Positions 31,344-33,210 of a DNA stretch of 38,505 bases are shown here, one piece after another. The stretch comes from Nitrospirota bacterium (GTDB taxonomy: Bacteria > Nitrospirota > Thermodesulfovibrionia > Thermodesulfovibrionales > Magnetobacteriaceae): NCBI GenBank assembly GCA_015233015.1, contig JADFYO010000033.1, positions 1-38,505 of the forward strand. Direction: 5' to 3'. Each line of letters starts with the position of its first letter. The stretch's first letter is position 1. Under the pieces are notes generated by a model. It made no database searches, had not been told where the DNA came from, and saw nothing but the letters and a program-made list of their open reading frames with translations. The translations under genes and the position numbers were made by a program.

Positions 31344-31369
31344 GGGCGGCTACACAGGGCGGCTACACA
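31344..31369. repeat. 13-bp perfect tandem duplication at the DHH gene's 3' end
   Basis: GGGCGGCTACACA occurs twice without a gap (31344-31356 and 31357-31369). The DHH stop codon (31363-31365) lies in the second copy. A recent slippage event is likely. Confidence 0.75.
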
Positions 31370-32460
31370 ATGTCAAAGTAAACTTTATCCGAATCTGCGG
31401 TGTCGGGGTCTTTGCCGTTAACATGCTCGTTAATATTCGGATCTTCGAGGATAAGATGATCCATTTTTCTTTTCACCAGTGAAAGCATCTCGCCCTTTAG
31501 TTCATCTCCCGCCCAAAAACCCGATGGCAGCTTAATAAATGCCCCGCCTTCGGCAATTCCCATGGACGATGTCTTTACGCCGCTGTTGCCGCCGAAACGT
31601 TCGGACAGAAAATCATGGAATGACATGGACGGGTCAGTACATCTGGCTGAAATCCTCACAACGGAGTTATCGACTATGCCCCATGTGACTGCCACCTGAA
31701 TTTCAGGCATTCTTATAAGACTGTCCGCTATGATTGCCAGCTGGTCGGCATCTTTAGACGATACGAAGCCAATGCCGGTTACCAGCCTCCCTTCTTTCAT
31801 CTTCCAGTTATTTATGGCATCTTTAAAGTGCTCGAAGAAGCGTTGCGGCAGTGGATAGCTTTGCAGCTGGCGAAATACCTCTTTGTCTGTAAACTCAAGC
31901 AGTTTTGAGTATGCAAGGACATCCCGTTCTGTGGCATTTATAAGCATCTTCGTATCCGTGAATATGGCAAGCGCCCCAAGCGTGGCCTCTTTGCTGTTTT
32001 TGGGCAGGGTATAGTCCATCGCAAACAGAAGCTCGGTAAGCAGGGTTGCCGCCGCCCCTACTCTGTCAATCAGGATAAAGCCGTTTTCGCCATACTCCTC
32101 TTTAATCTTTGTATCGATATCATGATGGTCGATTACAATTATTGGGATTATAACGCGCCCCAGCAGCCGCGAATCATTTACCTGAGATGAGTCGACAATC
32201 GCACAGGTCTTGATTTCCTTAGGCATTTCCTTTATGGGAAACATGATTGAACCAAGGTCGAATAACGTAAACATTGTGCGATTTTGAGGATGCCCGAAGT
32301 GTCCGCAGTAATATATCGTTACGTCCTTGCCCGATTTCATGGCTATATAACGCAACAGCATCGCCGAGCCGATTGCGTCGGGGTCAATCTGAGTTATAAC
32401 TATCGGGAGCGCGCTCAGGCCTTCTATCGTTTTCTTCAGTTTTTCCGCTTTTCCTTCCAC
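31363..32460 (-). CDS. DHH-family phosphoesterase (with DHHA1 domain)
   Basis: The protein resembles bacterial RecJ-like/NrnA-type phosphodiesterases. Metal motifs are in order: TQIDPDAIGSAM (D-x-D), AIVDSSQ, IVIDHHD, and a later DTK in LAIFTDTKM. The C-terminal part ends with GGNSGVKTSSMGIAEGG, a variant of the DHHA1 G-G-H motif. Substrates in this family are short oligonucleotides or cyclic dinucleotide products. I place the start at GTG 32460, because GAGG lies eight bases before it and the preceding residues come from short repeats. An ATG at 32541 would add 27 residues. Confidence 0.85.
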   Translation of the reverse strand: MEGKAEKLKKTIEGLSALPIVITQIDPDAIGSAMLLRYIAMKSGKDVTIYYCGHFGHPQNRTMFTLFDLGSIMFPIKEMPKEIKTCAIVDSSQVNDSRLLGRVIIPIIVIDHHDIDTKIKEEYGENGFILIDRVGAAATLLTELLFAMDYTLPKNSKEATLGALAIFTDTKMLINATERDVLAYSKLLEFTDKEVFRQLQSYPLPQRFFEHFKDAINNWKMKEGRLVTGIGFVSSKDADQLAIIADSLIRMPEIQVAVTWGIVDNSVVRISARCTDPSMSFHDFLSERFGGNSGVKTSSMGIAEGGAFIKLPSGFWAGDELKGEMLSLVKRKMDHLILEDPNINEHVNGKDPDTADSDKVYFDIV

Positions 32461-32514
32461 TTGAACCACCTCTTTCCCACTTGAACCATCGCTTTTCCTC
32501 CTGAACCACCTCTT
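32445..32514. repeat. Imperfect repeats over the DHH gene start
   Basis: The segment CGCTTTTCC...TGAACCACCTCT is present at 32446-32473 and again, four bases shorter, at 32490-32514. A half copy (CCCACTTGAACCAT) lies between. Each unit carries a GGTGGTTCA-type core on the minus strand that offers ribosome-site and start-codon look-alikes. Confidence 0.6.
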
Positions 32515-32618
32515 TTCAGGCCGCGAGATGTAATTATACAATATATTTGTTTTACATTGCCATTGTTTACGTCAAACATATTTTTTTCTGTGACTGCTCA
32601 CGGCAGCTTCTCATCTGC

Positions 32619-32732
32619 TCAACATGAGTGAAATGTAAATACGTGCGTAAATAAGTCATCCTCAGAACAGAAGACAACGCCGCAGTACGGGCAGTTCACC
32701 GTTGTGCGATGTTCAGGCGTGTCAGCGTTCAT
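32619..32732 (-). CDS. 37-residue classical C2H2 zinc-finger mini-protein
   Basis: The frame starts at an ATG one base after the peroxiredoxin TAA and ends at a TGA. Its residues 14-35 fit the textbook zinc finger exactly: C14-x2-C17-x3-F21-x5-L27-x2-H30-x4-H35 (CPYCGVVF, then DDLFTHVFTFH). The spacing of six diagnostic residues is very unlikely by chance in so short a frame. Single C2H2 fingers exist in bacteria (the Ros/MucR family) but with a different, longer spacing. Translational coupling to the peroxiredoxin gene is likely, since its stop is only one base away. It could bind zinc or nucleic acid, or serve as a redox or metal sensor next to peroxide defence. Confidence 0.72.
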   Translation of the reverse strand: MNADTPEHRTTVNCPYCGVVFCSEDDLFTHVFTFHSC

Positions 32733-32733
32733 T

Positions 32734-33210
32734 TTACCCTGAAATCCCTCTCAGATAGTCCATTATCTTCTGAACATGGCCTGTGGCCTTAACGGCTTTG
32801 TAGCGTTTTATTACCGTGCCATCTCCGGCGATTATGTATGTGGAGCGAATTGCCCCTGTTGTTGTCTTCCCGTATGATGTTTTCTGCCCCCATGCGCCGT
32901 AGGCCTCCATTACCTTGTGGACCGGGTCGCTAAGGAGAGGGAAATTCAGGGCGTGTTTGTCCCTGAATCTCTTATGGCTTTCCACTTTGTCAGCGCTCAC
33001 GCCCGCAACCCGCGCATACGGGAGTATTCTGTTTAAATTGTCCCTGAAGTCGCAGGCCTCCTGCGTACAGCCTGGCGTGTTATCCCTCGGATAGAAATAT
33101 AATACGAGGCGCCCGGCCCCTTCGAGCAAACCGCTCAATGTAAATACCCCTTCCTGTCCATTTTCATCTATCCCCGTTAACGTAAATTCAACGGCCTGTT
33201 CTCCTTCCAT
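32734..33210 (-). CDS. bcp: Peroxiredoxin, Bcp/PrxQ type
   Basis: The 158-residue thiol peroxidase reduces hydrogen and organic peroxides. The peroxidatic cysteine is C48 in TPGCTQEACDF, and C53 five residues later is the usual resolving partner in this subgroup. Other family points are YFYPRDNTPG and the HALNFPLLSDP and IRSTYIIAGDG segments. It lacks a signal peptide, so it is cytoplasmic. A zinc-finger mini-gene follows one base later on the same strand. Confidence 0.93.
   Translation of the reverse strand: MEGEQAVEFTLTGIDENGQEGVFTLSGLLEGAGRLVLYFYPRDNTPGCTQEACDFRDNLNRILPYARVAGVSADKVESHKRFRDKHALNFPLLSDPVHKVMEAYGAWGQKTSYGKTTTGAIRSTYIIAGDGTVIKRYKAVKATGHVQKIMDYLRGISG

Follow-up and report, generated by a model that had tools for sequence, protein, structure and literature searches.

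Classical Cys2His2 (C2H2) zinc fingers have been described as practically absent from bacteria (PMC3541406). The bacterial paradigm is Ros/MucR, a group of regulators that use C2H2 ligands. These have a spacer of nine residues between the second Cys and the first His, an extra His and a larger domain (PMC9779718). Tiny proteins that hold one classical finger are represented by AFV1p06 and its relatives from crenarchaeal viruses; AFV1p06 binds DNA, its helix carries a positively charged face, and no bacterial homologue of it was found (PMC3541406). Haloarchaeal C(P)XCG microproteins are shorter than 70 residues and have a single zinc domain with two C(P)XCG motifs (PMC11241148). Thermococcales ribosomes carry chains of 47–65 residues with one C2H2 finger (9qf4/9sra chain Bk, 6skg chain Bo), and C2H2 fingers that bind proteins have a precedent in EEA1, whose finger recognizes Rab5 (PMC7036122). 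Here we describe a minus-strand frame at 32619–32732 of contig JADFYO010000033.1 from a Nitrospirota bacterium (assembly GCA_015233015.1; the whole stretch of 38,505 nucleotides is referred to as the window). The frame almost certainly encodes a real, conserved protein, a single C2H2 finger of 37 residues.

The window protein shares ligand spacing, the core F and L and a predicted ββα arrangement with classical eukaryotic fingers (PF00096). It differs from these, together with its family, in being a lone, acidic finger without a TGEKP linker, with hydrophobic residues in helix positions 5 and 9 and a chain that stops two residues after the last His. The earlier note on this DNA, made from the sequence alone, had called the spacing classical and eukaryotic in type and distinct from that of Ros/MucR, and this is correct: the window protein has a 12-residue spacer, no H–H pair and nothing beyond ββα. 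AFV1p06 is similar in size and design; the window protein, however, has a net charge of −4 and an acidic residue at helix position 3. One CPxCG is shared with the haloarchaeal microproteins, whereas the second pair of ligands here is H-x4-H. The Thermococcales chains have the same fold but are archaeal, and they are no more similar to the finger protein than eukaryotic fingers are. The N-terminal finger of EEA1 is a weak sequence match (3mjh_B) and belongs to a large eukaryotic protein, so the resemblance may be chance among C2H2 fingers. The archaeal ribosomal protein aS21 was rejected as a counterpart because it has two zinc knuckles (PMC7005279).

The finger frame

The frame starts with ATG and its product is MNADTPEHRTTVNCPYCGVVFCSEDDLFTHVFTFHSC; the plus strand over the same positions is interrupted by stops, and no ATG, GTG or TTG lies upstream of 32732 in the finger frame. 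The bcp stop codon (TAA, 32736–32734) is followed by one base and then by the finger ATG. The earlier note had placed the start one base past the peroxiredoxin stop without naming a strand; the spacing is right and applies to the minus strand. Its claim of an exact C-x2-C-x3-F-x5-L-x2-H-x4-H motif also holds at every position (C14-x2-C17-x3-F21-x5-L27-x2-H30-x4-H35). Written as degenerate DNA, the motif occurs once in the window and in none of 100 dinucleotide shuffles of it. It likewise occurs once in the 3.78-Mb genome, where a reversed control pattern gave no match. The motif is therefore above chance. Common gene callers take frames of at least 90 nucleotides, and the remark that standard callers would skip a frame of 37 codons is doubtful.

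Homologues and coding constraint

Homologues were sought with tblastn and then with profiles in 176 sampled genomes of the order, at an expectation (E) value of 1e-5. Single copies were found in 25 genomes, the window's included, from three families (that of the window and two more); genus g2, which includes Ca. Magnetobacterium casense, gave no homologue among the sampled genomes. The members form an unnamed family in one Nitrospirota order, that of the magnetotactic Ca. Magnetominusculus and its relatives. All 25 members share C, P, C, H and H without exception, and G directly follows the second Cys in 22. The chain ends exactly two residues past the last His in every member, usually as SC, ST, SS or SG. 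Tail cysteines are present in 19 of the 25, often as CGC, CCS or CSTC. These motifs form an N-terminal Cys patch on the longer members. The patch has shrunk or disappeared in the genus of the window protein: of the five members there, only one has a tail Cys, and the window protein has none. The copy in genome G004 has no ATG, GTG or TTG start, and to judge from its sequence it likely starts at a CTG behind a GGTGG sequence.

Silent changes far outnumber replacements in the finger gene. The nonsynonymous and synonymous proportions (pN/pS) over the finger codons were 0.125/0.624 (∼ 0.2) when pooled for the window's genus and 0.134/0.561 for genus g3, and within the genus Fisher tests for single pairs with the window gene gave p values of 1e-5 to 0.01. 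The earlier note had named a tblastn search of related genomes and the substitution pattern as checks on the frame. The frame is kept in relatives with its four zinc ligands unchanged, and the substitutions reveal protein constraint. At the level of sequence, conservation in relatives settles the reality of the frame. A chance frame is ruled out by the uniqueness of the motif, the homologues and pN/pS. That the frame is spurious, a chance motif downstream of bcp, is barely credible: it is short, and the G004 copy has at best an unusual start, but the motif is unique in the genome, the ligands are invariant in 24 other species, many of them at unrelated loci, and pN/pS is ∼ 0.2.

The profile that found the 25 members was also used on four other phyla. 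It gave no homologue at E 1e-5 in samples, each without a positive control from the phylum concerned, of 297 genomes (phylum of a Geobacter record), 52 (phylum of an unnamed bacterium), 247 (phylum of an Acidobacteria record) and 136 (phylum of an Aquificota record). Phage and plasmid records contained no match to the family, and no NCBIfam model covers the protein. Pfam PF00096 (zf-C2H2) matched the window protein with 24.1 bits (E 4.4e-5), below the gathering score of 25.2, and all 17 family members compared with this model matched it at E ≤ 0.1. Further frames that resemble C2H2 fingers, CPHCSVVAKSEGGLQKHIASAH and one of 65 residues with two fingers, lie in another family of the order (G031; L051, 1498–2252) and are possibly a second bacterial C2H2 group.

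Predicted fold and zinc site

The AlphaFold2 model (19-row alignment) has a mean predicted local distance difference test score (pLDDT) of 81.8, with values of about 90 and above in the finger. Two short strands and a helix (residues 24–35) form a ββα unit. Foldseek and VIA-align matches were mainly classical fingers (ZFY, CTCF, Miz-1, AFV1p06, NDP52 and the archaeal chains 9qf4_Bk and 6skg_Bo), with weak E values, as expected for 37 residues. The ZFY finger 5znf superposed with Z 3.8 and a root-mean-square deviation (rmsd) of 0.8 over 28 residues, AFV1p06 (2lvh) with Z 3.5 and rmsd 0.9 over 29 residues, and 9qf4_Bk in Foldseek with rmsd 0.7 over 26 columns. Profile searches matched 9sra/9qf4 chain Bk (E 0.002–0.014) and 6skg chain Bo (E 0.009); the EEA1 finger 3mjh was a weak match (E 0.03–0.04). 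Judged by the predicted model, the protein is a member of the classical C2H2 structural class, and its conserved ligands C14, C17, H30 and H35 very probably hold one zinc ion in a finger of the usual kind.

Helix surface and proposed function

The window protein consists of the finger and a short acidic tail, and across the family the net charge is between 0 and −7. All 25 members have hydrophobic residues at helix positions 5, 8 and 9, and 24 have an acidic one at position 3, while positions 2 and 6 vary freely. In the C2H2 geometry, the residues at 5 and 9 are expected to lie on the surface. The hydrophobic residues at 5, 8 and 9, together with the fixed chain end, point to a protein-docking face. 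We propose that one Zn2+ would fold an otherwise unstructured peptide, that the hydrophobic helix positions and the fixed C-terminus would present a surface on which a protein partner could dock, and that the microprotein would serve as an adaptor or modulator that acts in trans and depends on zinc. It might be ribosome-bound, GTPase-bound or a self-dimer, and the link to bcp within one genus would be an operon of convenience. Protein-binding C2H2 fingers are found among the weak matches, namely EEA1 (which binds Rab5) and the ubiquitin-binding finger of NDP52, as are the archaeal ribosome-bound chains 9qf4 and 6skg.

We give an autonomous, zinc-stabilized, protein-binding microprotein a probability of roughly one half as the overall explanation, and we regard protein rather than DNA as the ligand as an evenly balanced call. 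The broader proposal is put forward more tentatively, with a probability somewhat below one half: an undescribed bacterial family of free-standing single fingers of eukaryotic type, passed down within one Nitrospirota order, whose members would be microproteins that dock onto other proteins in a zinc-dependent way and share a set C-terminus and a hydrophobic face that has been conserved. Several points weigh against protein docking. No partner gene is conserved beside the finger gene at the loci of the 25 members; we infer the exposure of positions 5 and 9 from the known fold; the hydrophobic stripe could serve self-association only; and the matches to EEA1, NDP52 and the ribosome fingers are generic C2H2 similarity.

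A DNA-binding transcription regulator, whose one finger would recognize a short DNA sequence, possibly as part of a dimer or alongside a partner, would be in keeping with the classical fold and motif and with the structural match to 2lvh, AFV1p06 being a lone finger that binds GC-rich DNA (PMC3541406). Classical fingers contact bases through helix positions −1, 2, 3 and 6 (PMC3541406). We nevertheless consider such a regulator unlikely because the protein is acidic, has no conserved recognition code (position 3 is acidic, 2 and 6 variable) and carries an invariant hydrophobic helix stripe. It also has no basic flanks, which play a part in DNA binding by Ros, and the helix face of AFV1p06 is positive. 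Slightly less unlikely is a zinc or redox sensor or buffer, whose C2H2 site, joined in most long members by the N-terminal Cys patch, would take up or release zinc, or be oxidized, under zinc or peroxide stress. The tail cysteines of most members, the bcp gene upstream within the window's genus and a ZIP family zinc transporter gene that diverges from the finger gene at 58–59 bp in G263 and G299 (L200, L201) are consistent with this. The window protein and most of its genus lack the tail Cys, however, and neither the ZIP nor the bcp link extends beyond a few relatives. The structural zinc site of a C2H2 finger is usually tight, which also counts against a sensor or buffer. The zinc- or redox-linked regulator suggested in the earlier note survives in part: charge and helix disfavour its DNA-binding form, whereas the ZIP neighbourhood in two species hints faintly at a connection with zinc in the family to which these two belong, possible but thin.

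A microprotein associated with the ribosome or RNA polymerase, comparable to the small C2H2 chains on Thermococcales ribosomes, is suggested by the profile matches and the Foldseek superposition of 9qf4_Bk. This is the least probable of the three roles, since eukaryotic fingers match equally well or better, an acidic protein is an unlikely binder of rRNA, and no translation gene is a constant neighbour. We favour protein docking, followed by zinc or redox sensing and then DNA binding. If protein docking is correct, bacteria would use a classical finger for protein binding independently of Ros/MucR. A family of single fingers that is under constraint, keeps the exact eukaryotic spacing and spans three families of one order offers a small experimental system for the job of a lone classical finger in a bacterium. 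It is also relevant to the question of whether this domain had more than one origin or was acquired repeatedly.

Genomic context and transcription

The features of the locus are listed in Table 1. The bcp gene lies ahead of the finger gene, as a neighbour, in 4 of the 25 members, all species of one genus, and coupling to a peroxide-reducing enzyme, as assumed in the earlier note, is not a general feature of the family. In G004, of the same genus, the location of the finger gene matches that in the window, with response-regulator and DHH genes on either side, and bcp is absent there; bcp as an obligate partner was rejected on these grounds. An RsbW-like ATPase (PF13581) lies between bcp and the finger gene in three of the four bcp-bearing congeners. 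Its closest counterpart in the window genome shares only 31% identity and is encoded on a different contig, and a three-gene module of bcp, the ATPase and the finger was not kept. The other 20 members have differing neighbours. The tsaD gene is convergent with the finger gene in 7 of 24; it lies on the opposite strand and was dismissed as a conserved partner. lspA lies ahead of the finger gene in three members, and the finger gene precedes trpA in two and a bioB-like gene in three. In G263 and G299 it is also convergent with an ftsY-like gene.

Table 1. Features at the finger locus of the window.
Feature	Position	Strand	Details
37-residue single C2H2 zinc-finger microprotein gene	32619..32732	minus	ATG at 32732, TGA stop at 32621–32619; open reading frame list, genome-unique motif, homologues, pN/pS, AlphaFold2
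Finger core, C-x2-C-x3-F-x5-L-x2-H-x4-H	32628..32693	minus	exact pattern match, 0/100 shuffles
bcp-type peroxiredoxin gene	32734..33210	minus	directly upstream, 1-base gap; PF00578, E 6.6e-31
DHH-family phosphoesterase-like gene	31363..32541	minus	downstream, context only; PF01368, 28.4 bits (cut-off 28.1)

A promoter-like site lies upstream of bcp on the minus strand (33282–33253), and in the window the finger gene is most likely carried on the bcp transcript. Elsewhere, a TATAAT-like box is found 5–8 nucleotides before the start in 9 of 24 finger genes, compared with 15 of 173 other genes at the same loci; the members are related, which makes the p value of this comparison optimistic. The box suggests that part of the family may have its own promoters and leaderless messages. 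Perfect TATAAT boxes stand 5–7 nucleotides before the finger ATG at L202–L204, L187 and L201, an arrangement that fits leaderless mRNA.

Two minor observations concern the DHH-family gene. A 20-base unit, TTCCACCTGAACCACCTCTT, occurs three times in tandem at its 5′ end in the window (32455–32517), and the listed N-terminus, KRWFRRKSDGSSGKEVVQVEG, may be repeat-derived, with the true start further in. In G004 (L184, 6216–7351) the gene is matched in two different frames whose query ranges overlap (28–181 and 164–384), which looks like a frameshift or an assembly error.
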